A DNA stretch of 64,000 nucleotides from Alphaproteobacteria bacterium (GTDB lineage Bacteria > Pseudomonadota > Alphaproteobacteria > Caulobacterales > Hyphomonadaceae): contig JAHJSB010000055.1 of the NCBI GenBank assembly GCA_018830285.1, positions 124,001 to 188,000 on the forward strand. The letters run 5' to 3'. The translations under genes were made by a program, and so were the position numbers. This document shows positions 3,295-12,379 of this stretch, in pieces. The notes under the pieces were generated by a model, which was not told the DNA's origin, made no database searches, and worked only from the letters and a program-made list of their open reading frames with translations. Every line of letters begins with the position of its first letter. The stretch's first letter is position 1.

Positions 3295-3904
3295 CGCGCA
3301 ACTCCCTTACAATCAATACGACACCCGACCCGCCACTTCGGCTCGGAATCGCCTCATACGCGAAGTTCCACCTTTGTCGGGCGTCCGTCAATTCTTCTTC
3401 CCAGCGTTCGCCCTTGAGGAACAGCCCTGTTGCACCGTTTTTCATCCAAGGCGCAGCATAATCCAGAAGTCGTGGCAGCGGTGCAAATGCCCGCGCTGTC
3501 ACGATATCTGCAGGTCTGGCCTCTGCAGACTCAACCCGGCCCTGGATGACTTCGGCCGGGAGATGAGCGGCGAGAATGGCCGCGCGAAGGAATGCAGCCT
3601 TTTTCCCGACGCTCTCTATCATCGTAACATGGCCCTTTGGGCGCGCCGCGGCGATGATCAACCCCGGAAAGCCGGCGCCGGAACCGAGATCCACGACACG
3701 CGCTGTTTCCGGAATATGGTCGAGCAATTGAAGGCAATCCCACACATGTCTCTGCCAGATATGCGGCCATTCGCGTGGGCCGATCAGATTACTCTTCAGC
3801 CGCCAGTCATCCAGCGTGGCTATCACCGAATCGAGGCGGTCGAGCGTTTCACGTGAAACATCGTGGGCGGCAAGGAATACCGCGCGGTCATTCTCGTCAC
3901 TCAT
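3278..3904 (-). CDS. rsmG: 16S rRNA (guanine-N7) methyltransferase RsmG (GidB)
   Basis: A 208-residue SAM-dependent methyltransferase that modifies G527 of 16S rRNA. The SAM-binding motif DLGSGAGFPGL is clear, followed by the acidic loop region MIESVGKKAAFLR. It sits 3 bases downstream of mnmG and overlaps parA. Codons 15-20 (DVSRET) contain a near-perfect parS sequence, so this stretch of the gene is also a likely partition site. Confidence 0.93.
   Translation of the reverse strand: MSDENDRAVFLAAHDVSRETLDRLDSVIATLDDWRLKSNLIGPREWPHIWQRHVWDCLQLLDHIPETARVVDLGSGAGFPGLIIAAARPKGHVTMIESVGKKAAFLRAAILAAHLPAEVIQGRVESAEARPADIVTARAFAPLPRLLDYAAPWMKNGATGLFLKGERWEEELTDARQRWNFAYEAIPSRSGGSGVVLIVRELRGGDEA
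3845..3860. promoter_or_regulatory. parS: parS site (15 of 16) inside rsmG
   Basis: The sequence CGTTTCACGTGAAACA differs from the canonical ParB site TGTTTCACGTGAAACA only at the first base. It lies in rsmG codons 15-20, in the same position class as parS sites reported near gidB in other bacteria, and is about 1.4 kb from the parB start. Binding by ParB is inferred from the match. Confidence 0.85.
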
Positions 3905-3907
3905 CGG

Positions 3908-5773
3908 TCATACCGCCTTTGCGCGGCGTTTCACGTGACTAAGCAAAGCCGTCAGCGCGCCCGGCGTGACGCCTTCTATACGTCCGGCCTGGCCGAGCGT
4001 CGCGGGCCGGATCGCTTCGAGTTTCTGCCGCACTTCATTCGACAGGCCCCCGACCGTCGCATAATCGAGACTGTCTGGAAGCCCAAGGCTATCATCCCGG
4101 CGCAGGGCTGCGACGTCTGCGGCCTGGCGATCGAGATATCCTGCGTACAGGGCCTCGATTTCCAATTGGGCGGCGATATCGGTCGAAACCTCGGCGAGGT
4201 CCGGCCAAATAATCGCCAGTTCGGCAAAGCCGATGCCCTTGTAGGCGAGATACTCCCAGGCCGACCGCACGCGCCCGTCTTGATTGATCGCCCATCCCGC
4301 CTGGGCCGCCTTGGCCGGCGAAAGGGTCAGGAATTGCAGCCTTTCGCGCGCCGCGGTTAATGCATCTTGTTTCACGTGAAACACTTTGGCCCGAATCGGG
4401 CCCACAATCCCCAAATCGAGGCCTTTTTGGGTCAAACGCTGGTCTGCATTGTCGGCGCGAAGGGCCAGACGATATTCTGCGCGGGACGTGAACATCCGAT
4501 AGGGCTCGGTGACTCCCCGTGTCACCAGGTCATCGATCAGGACGCCGATATAGGCCTCGGCCCGGTCAAACGTGACGGGTTCCTGTTCGTCCGCGCGCCG
4601 CGCCGCGTTCATTCCGGCAACAAGCCCCTGCGCGCCGGCTTCTTCATATCCGGTCGTGCCATTGATCTGCCCGGCCAGGTAAAGCCCCGGCAAGGCCCGG
4701 ACCTCCAGTGTCGGCGTCAGAGCCCGCGGATCGACATAATCATATTCAATGGCGTAGGCGTACTGGCGAATGGCGACATTTTCGAGGCCCGGGATCGTCC
4801 GGATGAACGCATCCTGCACCGTCTCGGGCAGCGACGTGGAAATGCCGTTGGGATAGACGGTATCGTCCTCGAGTCCTTCTGGTTCGAGGAATATCTGGTG
4901 GCGGTCACGATCGGAAAACCGATCGACCTTGTCTTCGATCGACGGGCAGTAGCGGGGGCCGCGGCCCGCAATCGCACCGGAATAGACAGCAGATTGTCCG
5001 ATATTGTCTGCGATGATGGCGTGCGTTTCGGGCGTGGTCCACGTGATGCCACAGGCGACCTGGGGTACGCGGATCTCGTCTGTCAGGTAGGAAAACGGCA
5101 CCGGGCGCTCATCCGCAGCCTGCATTTCCAGCCGGTCCCAGGCAATCGTCTTGCCGTCAAGGCGCGCGGGCGTTCCGGTTTTCAAACGGCCCATTGGAAG
5201 GCCGAGCGCATAGAGCCGGTCTGACAACCCGATTGCCGGGGCCTCTCCAGCGCGGCCAGCCGGAATGCGCTTCTCCCCGATGTGAATCATGCCTTTCAAA
5301 AACGTGCCCGTCGTAATGACGACCTTGCTTGCCCGGTATGACTGTCCGGTCAGGCCGGTCACACCCGCCAATTTACCTGCTTCCAGGATCAGGTCCTCGG
5401 CGCCATCCTCGATAATCGTCAGGTTTGGATAGTCCGCGAGCTCAGCCTGCATGGCCTGGCGGTAAAGCGCCCGGTCAATCTGCGCGCGGGGGCCCCAAAC
5501 AGCTGGCCCTTTCGAACGGTTGAGCATCCGGAACTGGATCCCGGCCTTGTCGGCCATGCGTCCCATCAACCCGTCGAGCGCATCGATCTCGCGCACAAGA
5601 TGGCCCTTGCCGAGCCCGCCGATAGCCGGATTGCAGCTCATCTCACCAATGGTCGATCGCTTGTGCGTCACCAGCGCCGTGCGGGCGCCATAGCGCGCGG
5701 CTGCAGCGGCCGCTTCACAACCGGCATGTCCGCCGCCGATCACAATCACATCAAATTCGTCTGGCTTCGCCAT
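3908..5773 (-). CDS. mnmG: tRNA uridine-5-carboxymethylaminomethyl modification enzyme MnmG (GidA)
   Basis: A 621-residue FAD enzyme that works with MnmE to modify the wobble uridine of certain tRNAs. The N-terminal dinucleotide motif [21 protein letters not shown] is diagnostic, followed by [24 protein letters not shown] and the cysteine-bearing stretch of the family. The C-terminal helical domain interacts with MnmE. mnmE lies 70 bases upstream and rsmG 3 bases downstream, giving the classic gid cluster. A perfect parS lies at residues 464-469 and a degenerate one at residues 611-616. Confidence 0.96.
3927..3942. promoter_or_regulatory. Degenerate parS-like sequence in mnmG 3' end
   Basis: The sequence contains GTTTCACGTGA, matching the left half and centre of parS, but the right arm diverges (CTAA instead of AACA). 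It encodes residues 611-616 (LSHVKR). It may be a weak secondary ParB site or chance coding similarity, since HVK codons naturally create CACGTG. Its position between two better sites is the only added support. Confidence 0.35.
4368..4383. promoter_or_regulatory. parS: parS site (perfect 16 of 16) inside mnmG
   Basis: TGTTTCACGTGAAACA is identical to the conserved bacterial chromosomal parS palindrome. It is embedded in mnmG at residues 464-469 (VFHVKQ), about 1.9 kb from the start of parB and about 7 kb from the putative origin. A perfect 16-bp match beside parAB makes chance very unlikely; ParB loading here is inferred from family knowledge. Confidence 0.93.
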
Positions 5774-10154: not shown

Positions 10155-11192
10155 TCAGCCTTCCCGCACGATTTTCAGGACACGCTCGACATTCGCGATC
10201 GGTGTTTCCGGTCGGACGCCGTGCCCCAGATTGAATATATGGGGACGACCGGCATAGGCTTCCACAAGGTCCCGGACCCGCGCATCCAGCCGCTCGCCGC
10301 CTTCGATCAGCAAGAGGGGATCTAGATGTCCCTGAACCGGCATGCCCTCCGGCAGTGCGGTATTTACGAATAGCGGCACTGCTGCGGTATCAAGCCCGAC
10401 AGCCGTCACGCCGGTAATCCGTGCATATTCCGGCAACATCGCCCCCGCGCCGCGCGGAAATCCGGTAATCGGCACGGTCACGCCCATGTCCCGCAACATC
10501 GCGACCAGTTTCGTGGTTGGCCGTATGATGACTTCGCGGAAGATATTGTCCGGCAGGCCCTCGGCCCAGCTGTCGAACAGCATCAGCGCGTCTGCGCCGG
10601 CTTCAACCTGTTTCACCAAATAGTGCGCGGTCGCTTCGATGACATAGTCCATCACGGCGGCCAGTTCCTCCGGCCGGCCATGCGCCCAGCGCCATGCCAG
10701 CGACTTGTCGGTCTTGCCGCGTCCTTCGATGGCATACAGGCTCACCGTCCAGGGCGATCCGGCAAAGCCGATCAGGGCTGTCTCCTTTGGCAGTTCGGCC
10801 TTGACCCGGGACACCGTCTCATAGACCGGCGCCAGCCTGTCAGCCGCCTTGATCGCTGGCACCTTGCCGAGATCTGACGCCGACTCGATCTGCTGGACGA
10901 TCGGCCCAACGCCCTTCTCGAATTCCACGCCCAGGCCCATCGCATCGAGGATCAGCAGGATATCGGCAAACAGGATCGCCCCGTCCATGCCATAGCGGCG
11001 GATGGGCTGGAGCGTCGCTTCCGTAGCCATTGACGGCGTATAGCAGAAATCGAGAAAGTCCTTGGCGCGTGATCGCAGCTCAAGATATTCCGGCAAGTGC
11101 CGCCCGGCCTGCCGCATCATCCATACCGGAGGCCTCTTGGCGGGCTTCCCACCAAGGACGCTGATCAGTTTTGATGTGCCGGTTTGCCCCAT
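10155..11192 (-). CDS. hemE: Uroporphyrinogen decarboxylase
   Basis: Converts uroporphyrinogen III to coproporphyrinogen III in the cytoplasm. The diagnostic PPVWMMRQAGRHLPEY block and ILFADILLILDAMG are present. I give the start at 11192 (MGQTG, 345 residues) because it places the first motif where family members have it; an ATG at 11210 would add six residues (MRDLRV). Both have weak ribosome-binding sites. The gene borders the putative replication origin, as hemE does in Caulobacter, and is transcribed away from it. Confidence 0.94.
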   Translation of the reverse strand: MGQTGTSKLISVLGGKPAKRPPVWMMRQAGRHLPEYLELRSRAKDFLDFCYTPSMATEATLQPIRRYGMDGAILFADILLILDAMGLGVEFEKGVGPIVQQIESASDLGKVPAIKAADRLAPVYETVSRVKAELPKETALIGFAGSPWTVSLYAIEGRGKTDKSLAWRWAHGRPEELAAVMDYVIEATAHYLVKQVEAGADALMLFDSWAEGLPDNIFREVIIRPTTKLVAMLRDMGVTVPITGFPRGAGAMLPEYARITGVTAVGLDTAAVPLFVNTALPEGMPVQGHLDPLLLIEGGERLDARVRDLVEAYAGRPHIFNLGHGVRPETPIANVERVLKIVREG

Positions 11193-11292
11193 GACCCTCA
11201 AATCCCTCATATCTCACAAGCCCGTCAGGGCGCTTACTATTACTATCCGGTGATATCAGGGGAGAAAGGCCACTCACAGGATTTGTCCAGCG

Positions 11293-11301
11293 AAATCCAC
11301 A
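11293..11301 (+). promoter_or_regulatory. DnaA-box-like 9-mer (AAATCCACA)
   Basis: AAATCCACA matches 7 of 9 bases of the TTATCCACA DnaA consensus, with the core ATCCACA intact. It lies on the hemE side of the CtrA boxes. Confidence 0.45.
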
Positions 11302-11327
11302 CGCGAGTCACAGGGTGTCGCACCCCG

Positions 11328-11342
11328 TTAACCCTTGCTTAA
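11328..11342. promoter_or_regulatory. CtrA box 1 (TTAA-N7-TTAA)
   Basis: TTAACCCTTGCTTAA is a perfect match to the full CtrA recognition sequence. In Caulobacter, phosphorylated CtrA bound at such sites silences the origin in swarmer cells. It is centred 34 bp from box 2, about three helical turns, so both would be on the same DNA face. Confidence 0.82.
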
Positions 11343-11361
11343 CCTTCAATTCCCGCGAGGG

Positions 11362-11376
11362 TTAATGGCAGGTTAA
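11362..11376. promoter_or_regulatory. CtrA box 2 (TTAA-N7-TTAA)
   Basis: TTAATGGCAGGTTAA is a second perfect CtrA recognition sequence, 19 bases from the end of box 1. Two such sites in one short intergenic region next to GANTC clusters strongly suggest CtrA control of replication initiation. Confidence 0.82.
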
Positions 11377-11475
11377 CGTCCCTTATGGAGTCACAGGATG
11401 AAACATAGGGGGAATCCTCGGGAGTCAGATTCGGTCGCCTGTGAATGGATTGTGACTCCCGGTGTGACGATTCAC

Positions 11476-11495
11476 CTGTCCACAGCTTGTACACA
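11476..11495 (+). promoter_or_regulatory. Two tandem DnaA-box-like 9-mers
   Basis: CTGTCCACA (11476-11484) and TTGTACACA (11487-11495) each match 7 of 9 bases of the DnaA consensus and have the same orientation with a 2-base gap. They lie on the ppsR side of the origin region. Individually weak, they gain support from their spacing and context. Confidence 0.45.
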
Positions 11496-11536
11496 GGCCT
11501 TGTGAAAACGCTCGGCCCTCGGCAAGAGAGTGTGCC

Positions 11537-12379
11537 ATGCCCAGTCCTCAACGCCCGAGCATCTATTTCAACGTCCACCTCGTGTCAGACAGCACGGGCG
11601 AAACCCTGAATGCTGTCCAGCGCGCGGCCTGCGCGCAGTTCGAGAATGTACAGGCGCTTGAGCACAACTACTACCTCGTCCGCTCGGAGCGCCAGCTTGA
11701 ACGGGTGATGCGCGAGATCGAGGCGGCGCCCGGCGTGGTCTGGTACACGATCTCCGACGAAGCGTTGCGGGCCAGGCTCGAATCCTTCTGCCGTGAACGC
11801 GGCGTCGCCACCCTGCCCGTCCTCGATGCCTCGATCGCCATGCTCGGTCGGCATCTCGGTATCGCGGCCAACCACAAGGTTGCCGGCCAGCACGCGCTGG
11901 ACCAGGATTATTTCGACCGGATGGAAGCGATCAATTTCACGCTCGCGCATGATGACGGCCAGAATGTTGACGGCCTGATCGGTGCCGACGTGATCCTGCT
12001 CGGTGTCAGTCGCACGTCCAAGACGCCGACCTGTGTCTATCTTGCCAACCGAAAGGTGCGCGCTGGCAATATCCCGCTGGTGCCTGGCGTCCAGCTGCCA
12101 CCTTTCATCGAGGAGTTAGGCGAGAAAGGCCCCATGGTCGTCGGCCTCAAGATCAGCGCTGAACGGCTGGTGCAAATCCGTCGCCAGCGCCTGATCTCGC
12201 TCAACCAGGACGAACACACGATTTATGCCGATGAAGACGCGGTCCGCGATGAGGTGACACAGGCCAATCGCCTGTTCCAGCGCAACAAGTGGAAAACCAT
12301 CGATGTCTCGCGTCGCTCGGTCGAAGAGACGGCTGCGGCCATTCTCAACTTCCTCAATGAGCGCCGCGCCCAGCTATGA
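11537..12379 (+). CDS. ppsR: Pyruvate, phosphate dikinase / PEP synthase regulatory protein
   Basis: A 280-residue DUF299-type bifunctional kinase/pyrophosphorylase that switches PEP synthase or pyruvate phosphate dikinase off and on by ADP-dependent phosphorylation. The N terminus FNVHLVSDSTGETLNAVQRAA and the P-loop-like GVSRTSKTPTCVYLANRK are family signatures. It is the first gene to the right of the putative origin (the position of RP001 in Caulobacter). Its TGA overlaps the maf ATG by 4 bases, starting a tightly coupled five-gene run. Confidence 0.93.
   Translation: MPSPQRPSIYFNVHLVSDSTGETLNAVQRAACAQFENVQALEHNYYLVRSERQLERVMREIEAAPGVVWYTISDEALRARLESFCRERGVATLPVLDASIAMLGRHLGIAANHKVAGQHALDQDYFDRMEAINFTLAHDDGQNVDGLIGADVILLGVSRTSKTPTCVYLANRKVRAGNIPLVPGVQLPPFIEELGEKGPMVVGLKISAERLVQIRRQRLISLNQDEHTIYADEDAVRDEVTQANRLFQRNKWKTIDVSRRSVEETAAAILNFLNERRAQL

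Follow-up and report, generated by a model that had tools for sequence, protein, structure and literature searches.

Whether CcrM licenses an alphaproteobacterial chromosomal origin is a long-standing question. The intergenic gap between hemE and ppsR raises it for Hyphomonas, a marine budding bacterium: is the gap a replication origin, and what do the GANTC (CcrM) sites crowded into it do there? The DNA analysed was a stretch of 64,000 nucleotides (the window), positions 124,001 to 188,000 of its contig, which is called C52 below. The genome was assigned to Hyphomonas because the best ppsR matches, among 41 loci, were those of H. chukchiensis and H. oceanitis (96% identity); some of the 41 loci are labelled Acidobacteria, Ca. 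Sulfopaludibacter or Rhodobacterales MAGs and are probably mislabelled. An earlier note on this DNA had placed a putative origin under CtrA and CcrM control in the gap, in a gene neighbourhood like that of the Caulobacter Cori with transcription diverging from it. Open reading frames and profile matches in the window bore out the orientation: hemE is transcribed leftward, and ppsR, maf, aroE, coaE and dnaQ follow in that order to the right.

10155 to 11210, minus strand: hemE, uroporphyrinogen decarboxylase, left flank (TIGR01464, 356 bits).
11211 to 11536, no strand: hemE-ppsR intergenic gap, proposed as oriC from its context (GC 0.54 vs about 0.62 in the window, that is, an AT content above average).
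11537 to 12379, plus strand: ppsR-type regulator, right flank (NF003742, 314 bits, above the cut-off).

The right-flank regulator, which we take to be COG1806/DUF299, scored 163 bits with a narrower PpsR model, under its cut-off of 350. To see the gap among relatives, 110 ppsR upstream regions of the order were chosen from 200 genomes searched, among the matches listed with coordinates: 18 from the window genus (g1, Hyphomonas), 23 from other genera of the family (g2 being a related genus) and 69 from four other families (f2 being another family, probably Caulobacteraceae). Of the 110, 106 had a divergent hemE no more than 700 bp from ppsR, a Cori-like neighbourhood as the earlier note had it; these 106 were counted and the 4 others left out. 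In L078, L080, L126 and L130 a recognisable hemE was absent within 700 bp of ppsR, so the origin neighbourhood may be rearranged there, or the gap longer. In a survey of the class ppsR was matched in 44 of 67 genomes; with the window genome, G002 (already in the order set) and one two-piece match left out, 41 upstream regions from other families remained, and 34 of them had the divergent hemE/COG1806 arrangement. For conservation within the genus, the 18 Hyphomonas gaps were joined by those of 28 of 30 Hyphomonas-like loci (two were without hemE in reach), and the resulting 46 gaps comprised 34 distinct sequences, 24 at below 95% identity (mean identity 0.63).

The gap is most likely the chromosomal replication origin of this Hyphomonas, as the hemE/ppsR context, the GC skew of a closed relative and the published marker frequency of the same genus all suggest. 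In H. neptunium the marker frequency of replication peaks near hemE, and parAB and two parS lie about 7 kb away from the origin; its authors could not clearly place the origin from skew, initiator gene or DnaA sites (excerpts of PMC6650430). The closed relative G006 was sampled in 20 stretches of 20 kb: all 8 samples before the gap had negative skew, the sign switched inside the 20 kb containing the gap, all 8 samples between 1.27 and 2.92 Mb were positive, the skew came to about zero at 3.05 Mb, and the last two samples were negative; the antipode of the gap is at 3.03 Mb. Five additional pre-gap stretches were likewise negative. The skew minimum that the earlier note had expected at the gap was thus found only in part: G006 agreed with it, both by the flip at the gap and at the antipode, but the cumulative skew of C52 had its deepest minimum at 233.6 kb and a local one at about 144 kb, with the gap at 135.2 kb, and in the closed relative G021 (10 stretches) the skew fitted on the terminus side and not on the origin side. 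The skew of the window or contig was rejected as an origin locator because it changes sign several times.

Between 190 and 235 kb of C52 the skew was mostly negative, and in G006 it was weakly of the opposite sign over the collinear part (to 224.5 kb). An inversion relative to G006 as the source of this sign change was unsupported, most of the stretch (to 224.5 kb) being collinear with G006. Positions at about 15.7 kb and 224.5 kb of C52 seem to be the ends of an origin-spanning inversion or rearrangement relative to that genome. In G006, G016 and G021 the distance between dnaA and the gap is about 0.4-0.5 Mb.

Two parS-like palindromes were found in the window by comparison with the parS consensus:

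4368 to 4383, plus strand: parS, perfect consensus match, 6.8 kb from the gap (0 in 100 shuffles).
3845 to 3860: parS-like, one mismatch, about 7 kb from the gap.

One lies within mnmG and the other in the ORF preceding mnmG, and a ParB-family gene is located nearby at 1568-2557 (TIGR00180). A parS-like TTTCACGTGAAAC was observed within the hemE-ppsR gap itself, immediately before ppsR, at L288 and L316, two loci from a family outside the order.

The control elements were considered next to this context. The gap holds two perfect TTAA-N7-TTAA boxes with centres 34 bp apart, as claimed before:

11328 to 11342, plus strand: CtrA box 1, TTAACCCTTGCTTAA, perfect in 7 of the 24 distinct Hyphomonas gaps, at least 7 of 8 bases matching in 12 of them.
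11362 to 11376, plus strand: CtrA box 2, TTAATGGCAGGTTAA, perfect in 14 and with at least 7 of 8 bases in all 24 distinct Hyphomonas gaps.

They are the only matches to the pattern in the whole window (shuffle mean 0.06). In the 3.56-Mb draft genome the pattern occurs 17 times and is not over-represented, since the reversed-pattern control gave 20; at this density the probability of two or more boxes in a 326-bp gap is about 1e-6, a value that, like that for GANTC below, is post hoc because the site had been chosen for its motifs. The CtrA part of the earlier proposal gained from the conservation of box 2 in 24/24 gaps and from a CtrA ChIP-seq site adjoining the H. neptunium origin (PMC7200025, in part). 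The CtrA gene of the window genome is split between contig ends, one piece matching the Caulobacter sequence at 78% over residues 32-226 and the other at 73% over residues 1-77. At least one perfect CtrA box was present in 15/18 gaps of g1, 15/17 of g2, 2/6 of the rest of the family, 17/22 of f2, 6/23 of f3, 5/18 of f4 and 0/2 of f5, and a CtrA box in 2/34 hemE-bearing gaps of other families in the class. In g2 (L052, L057, L170, L173 and others) two CtrA-like columns were seen in 16/16 and 15/16 distinct gaps, so that the CtrA pair is probably older than Hyphomonas.

A CtrA-bound hemE/ppsR origin is of a known kind. The C. crescentus Cori, compared here by description, likewise lies between divergent hemE and COG1806, with TTAA-N7-TTAA among weak DnaA sites (PMC1914354 and PMC4468827, both in excerpt), but it has five CtrA sites as against two perfect boxes here, and the strict IHF consensus (WATCAN5WTR) was not matched in 11201-11545 of the window. 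The origin of H. neptunium, also compared by description, resembles the one proposed here in its genus, the hemE-proximal peak, CtrA beside ori and parAB/parS at about 7 kb (parts of PMC6650430 and PMC7200025), although GANTC and CcrM occur 0 times in the main text of PMC7200025.

What sets the gap apart is its GANTC content. The seven sites in 169 bp counted by the earlier note are there, starting at 11305, 11388, 11412, 11422, 11428, 11454 and 11469. GANTC is scarce across the window (137 vs 315 expected from shuffles), and nowhere in 300 kb of C52, which hold 585 GANTC, is it denser than in the gap; the probability of at least 7 in 326 bp is 5e-6, again post hoc. Against dinucleotide shuffles GANTC was observed 146 vs 27 times in g1 (18 gaps), 87 vs 28 in g2 (17), 37 vs 10 in the rest of the family and 65 vs 32 in f3, and counts were 34 vs 34 in f4 and 3 vs 4.5 in f5. 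In the 22 gaps of f2 no GANTC excess was found by shuffling (57 vs 53). The window genome encodes CcrM, which scored 608 bits with the Caulobacter CcrM model (under its cut-off of 830) and has CcrM structure 6pbd as its best PDB match (E 1e-160); genes for GcrA and DnaA are also present.

To ask whether the GANTC motif itself is conserved, alignment columns were scored in the 24 distinct Hyphomonas gaps. Three GANTC columns were kept in at least 90% of the rows with a varying middle base; among 256 XYNZW patterns put through the same test the next best had 1 column, and the mean was 0.03. One of the kept columns has every middle base (A8 C6 G6 T4). By this comparison, GANTC is kept as such in the Hyphomonas gaps. 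Such free-middle-base columns were not seen in the genera g2, g8, g16, g18, g25, g17 and g20 (5 to 16 distinct gaps each); g20 keeps 3 GANTC columns, but with the middle base fixed. In g2 GANTC is enriched, yet no GANTC column reaches 90% of the rows, which counts against the reading developed below. The sites outside DnaA-like sequences are:

11412 to 11416, plus strand: CcrM site GAATC, GANTC in 15 of 24 distinct gaps.
11422 to 11426, plus strand: CcrM site GAGTC, kept in 19 of 24, middle base always G.
11428 to 11432, plus strand: CcrM site GATTC, present as GANTC in 16 of 24.
11469 to 11473, plus strand: CcrM site GATTC, in a minority of the genus (GANTC in 3 of 18 rows).

DnaA-box-like sequences, the remaining element of the earlier proposal, were counted by mismatches to TTATCCACA. 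Nine-mers with at most 2 mismatches number 3 in the gap (at 11293, 11476 and 11487) vs 0.44 expected from the window density, and those with at most 3 mismatches 7 in 11200-11545 vs 3.9 per 326 bp; none of the three boxes with at most 2 mismatches is a TGATCCACA G-box. A GANTC that reads GANTCACA on one strand is referred to as a composite. The two kinds of site are arranged as follows:

11283 to 11291, plus strand: DnaA-like 9-mer TTGTCCAGC, left array, 3 mismatches to TTATCCACA.
11293 to 11301, plus strand: DnaA box AAATCCACA, left array, 2 mismatches, TCCACA in 18 of 18 genus alignment rows.
11304 to 11312, plus strand: composite CGAGTCACA with CcrM site 11305-11309, 11 bp past the previous box, composite in 18 of 18 g1 gaps.
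11387 to 11395, plus strand: composite GGAGTCACA with CcrM site 11388-11392, with GANTCACA read in 23 of the 24 distinct gaps and A8 C2 G13 in the middle.
11440 to 11448, minus strand: DnaA-like 9-mer CCATTCACA, with a composite at the slot in 8 of 18 g1 gaps.
11451 to 11459, minus strand: composite GGAGTCACA with CcrM site 11454-11458, shared by all 24 distinct gaps, with A8 C6 G6 T4 in the middle.
11476 to 11484, plus strand: DnaA box CTGTCCACA, right array, 2 mismatches.
11487 to 11495, plus strand: DnaA box TTGTACACA, right array, lacking GANTC here, GANTCACA composite in 14 of 18 g1 gaps.
11501 to 11509, minus strand: DnaA-like 9-mer GTTTTCACA, 3 mismatches.

Composites make up 98 of 189 GANTC in the 24 distinct Hyphomonas gaps vs 7 of the 578 found elsewhere in the 300 kb of C52. 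Their counterparts in g2 were read from an alignment of 18 g1 and 17 g2 gaps. At slot 283, which corresponds to 11487-11495 of the window and is composite in 14/18 g1, all 17 g2 gaps carry NNNTCCACA; at slot 236, corresponding to 11440-11448 and composite in 8/18 g1, all 17 have a CACA end and 11 have NNNTCCACA. Slot 99, corresponding to 11304-11312 and composite in 18/18 g1, reads NNNTCCCCA in 8, NNNTCCATA in 5 and GAGTCCAAN in 4 of the 17, and the 8 contain TCCCCA, the W-box consensus (PMC4285127, in part). Slot 247, also composite in 18/18 g1, is TTCACC-ended in 7/17 g2 gaps, has another CAC[CT] in 4/17 and GACTC in another register in 6/17; it is only loosely box-like (mean 5.5 mismatches), which counts against the composite reading. 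The same holds for slot 182, for which no clear g2 counterpart was found in the alignment, for the 4 mismatches to TTATCCACA in each of the window composites and for the right-array slot that is without GANTC in the window species. Random g2 9-mers average 6.7 mismatches to TTATCCACA, and the four g2 slots 2.1 to 5.5.

A similar exchange was observed in the family outside the order, in which 10 genomes were found and 8 gaps compared (one gap was out of reach and one match partial). Two slots are composite in 6/8 and 5/8, mostly as TGACTCACA or TGATTCACA, also as GGACTCACA; where a row is not composite, the first slot has ATTTCCACA or AAACTCACA, and the second has GGACTCACC, CCGTTTTCT or TTATCCACA, the last being a perfect DnaA box, although 2/8 rows are without composite or clear box at one slot. 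Among the 34 hemE-bearing gaps from other families of the class L288 alone has more than one composite; f2 has a composite in 3/22 gaps and g2 in 0/17. Known boxes make the composite forms plausible: position 2 is G in those of Caulobacter (TGATCCACA), and position 5 is T in those of H. pylori (TCATTCACA) (PMC4285127, excerpt). Upstream of plus-strand composites a T[CG][CA]ACA box lies exactly 11 bp away in 40/65, and the other 25 have none within 24 bp; of the 33 minus-strand composites, 10 lie 10 or 11 bp from a box and 23 have none, all of these counts sharing ancestry and hence not being independent. A search of the genome for a further tight composite cluster with a gap of 0-30 gave 0 matches; this pattern misses the origin too, because same-strand origin composites are 75 bp apart.

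Since the composite slots hold DnaA-box-like or W-box-like sites in relatives, we read GANTCACA as a putative DnaA box that carries a CcrM site, an overlap that the earlier note does not mention. At the level of sequence, the comparison demonstrates the arrangement, its conservation, the retention of GANTC as such and its swap with ordinary DnaA boxes. The methylase site is enriched in the origin, and its overlap with DnaA boxes appears conserved as such, the identity of the boxes being judged from slot homology.

One further conserved element was noted beside the hemE start, where a GCCCG[TA]CAGGGCG.TTA block at 11220-11246 occurs in 18/18 Hyphomonas gaps and is followed by AT-rich sequence. 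It may belong to the hemE leader or act as an unwinding element. The conserved GCCC/GGGC hairpin there showed no folding advantage over shuffles (z 0.5 and 0.4), no RNA family reached its gathering threshold in the window or in L288, and a low-power scan of the gap found neither terminator nor promoter.

We consider it probable that the gap is an origin with CtrA-centred DnaA arrays, in which several boxes are also CcrM sites whose methylation state would gate refiring. DnaA would nucleate on TCCACA-type boxes, in short arrays on both sides of the CtrA site, and spread in 10-11 bp steps onto the composites NGANTCACA. Phosphorylated CtrA on the central boxes would block this assembly in the non-replicating cell type. 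After passage of the fork the composites would remain hemimethylated until CcrM synthesis late in the cell cycle; the methylated adenine would occupy box position 3 on one strand and lie opposite position 5 on the other. We infer that DnaA binds the composites and that hemimethylation alters the binding of DnaA (or a partner), with either sign possible, so that the origin could not refire. DnaA sites with a cell-cycle methylation tag suggest a way for the cell to count replication rounds. Two observations count against the gating: replication control is intact after CcrM loss in C. crescentus (PMC3973325, in part), and the DnaA-type ori1 of A. tumefaciens was not clearly affected, as described in an excerpt of PMC11514494.

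The alternative that survives best, though unlikely, is that the gap is an origin whose GANTC cluster serves transcription, with GcrA and methylated GANTC driving hemE, ppsR or an origin transcript and the ACA being incidental. GcrA is encoded in the window genome, and in this class the intergenic DNA generally shows GANTC enrichment (PMC3973325, in part). At the same time, the extended GcrA motif YGAKTCK (quoted in PMC7987155) fits only 11/189 origin GANTC, an argument that is weak because PMC7987155 did not see this preference in Brevundimonas. A scan of the gap for sigma-70-like promoters gave none, though with little power, as shuffles give only 0.3, and a promoter would not need several sites stepped with DnaA boxes.

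Slightly less likely still is an origin in which the composites are DnaA boxes but their GANTC arose as a side effect of altered DnaA specificity, TCACA rather than TCCACA, methylation having no role. DnaA of E. coli has arginine seven residues before the PRQ motif. A lysine was read at this position, unaligned, in 9/9 g1 and 7/7 g2 proteins; the f2 and f3 proteins examined have arginine and the f4 protein G004 lysine. The Hyphomonas and g2 proteins, which thus differ near the box-contacting region, also score under the DnaA family cut-off (9/9 and 7/7; L008 and L248-L262 among the g1/g2 loci). A low score is not special to the window family, because 16/16 of f5 and 6/15 of f3 are also under the cut-off; all 15 of f2 and all 14 of f4 are above it. 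The residue change was rejected as a Hyphomonas-specific cause of the composites, as g2 has it too and shows a composite in none of its gaps. Moreover, GA is retained at positions 2-3 despite the varying middle base, although a relaxed box would have no need of GA, and three non-composite GANTC columns are also kept (15, 19 and 16 of 24). That the gap is no origin at all but only a divergent promoter region under CtrA control is highly improbable: CtrA sites are usually gene-regulatory and hemE and ppsR do diverge, but the H. neptunium marker frequency peak near hemE (PMC6650430, in part), the G006 skew flip, the DnaA-box arrays and the nearby parS speak against it.

The preferred reading, an origin with CcrM sites inside its DnaA boxes, has partial parallels. 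The Dam/SeqA-controlled oriC of E. coli also has enriched methylation sites that overlap DnaA boxes (GATC over the R5, I2, I3 and tau sites; PMC4285127, in part), but the methylase (CcrM) and motif differ here. repABC origins are likewise GANTC-rich alphaproteobacterial origins for which CcrM timing has been proposed (PMC6090056 and PMC11514494, in part); unlike the window origin, their initiator is RepC, not DnaA, and control was shown via repC/repE expression. On the Caulobacter side, by contrast with Hyphomonas, the f2 gaps lack GANTC excess and rarely carry composites. CcrM sites within the DnaA boxes of a chromosomal origin look new: in the open-licence PMC literature we found no report of CcrM sites embedded in chromosomal DnaA boxes with a free middle base, and Shaheen 2009 and Taylor 2011, on Caulobacter origins, may report GANTC in such gaps.

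Cell-cycle models have assumed that full methylation of Cori is necessary (PMC2217572 and PMC8865702, in part), and Gonzalez et al. described several GANTC in the Caulobacter origin with CcrM dispensable for replication control (excerpt of PMC3973325). The lack of GANTC excess in f2 (probably Caulobacteraceae) fits replication control without CcrM in Caulobacter and is a possible reason for that result. Hyphomonas, by contrast, appears to have retained GANTC inside sites that serve its relatives as DnaA boxes. We know of no SeqA-like partner for CcrM sites. It is a tentative proposal, with the odds against it, that Hyphomonas and, independently, another alphaproteobacterial family have built CcrM sites into DnaA boxes, so that the initiator itself would read methylation as a once-per-cycle licence without SeqA. 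The survey names the genus and the sites in which to ask whether CcrM licenses the origin.
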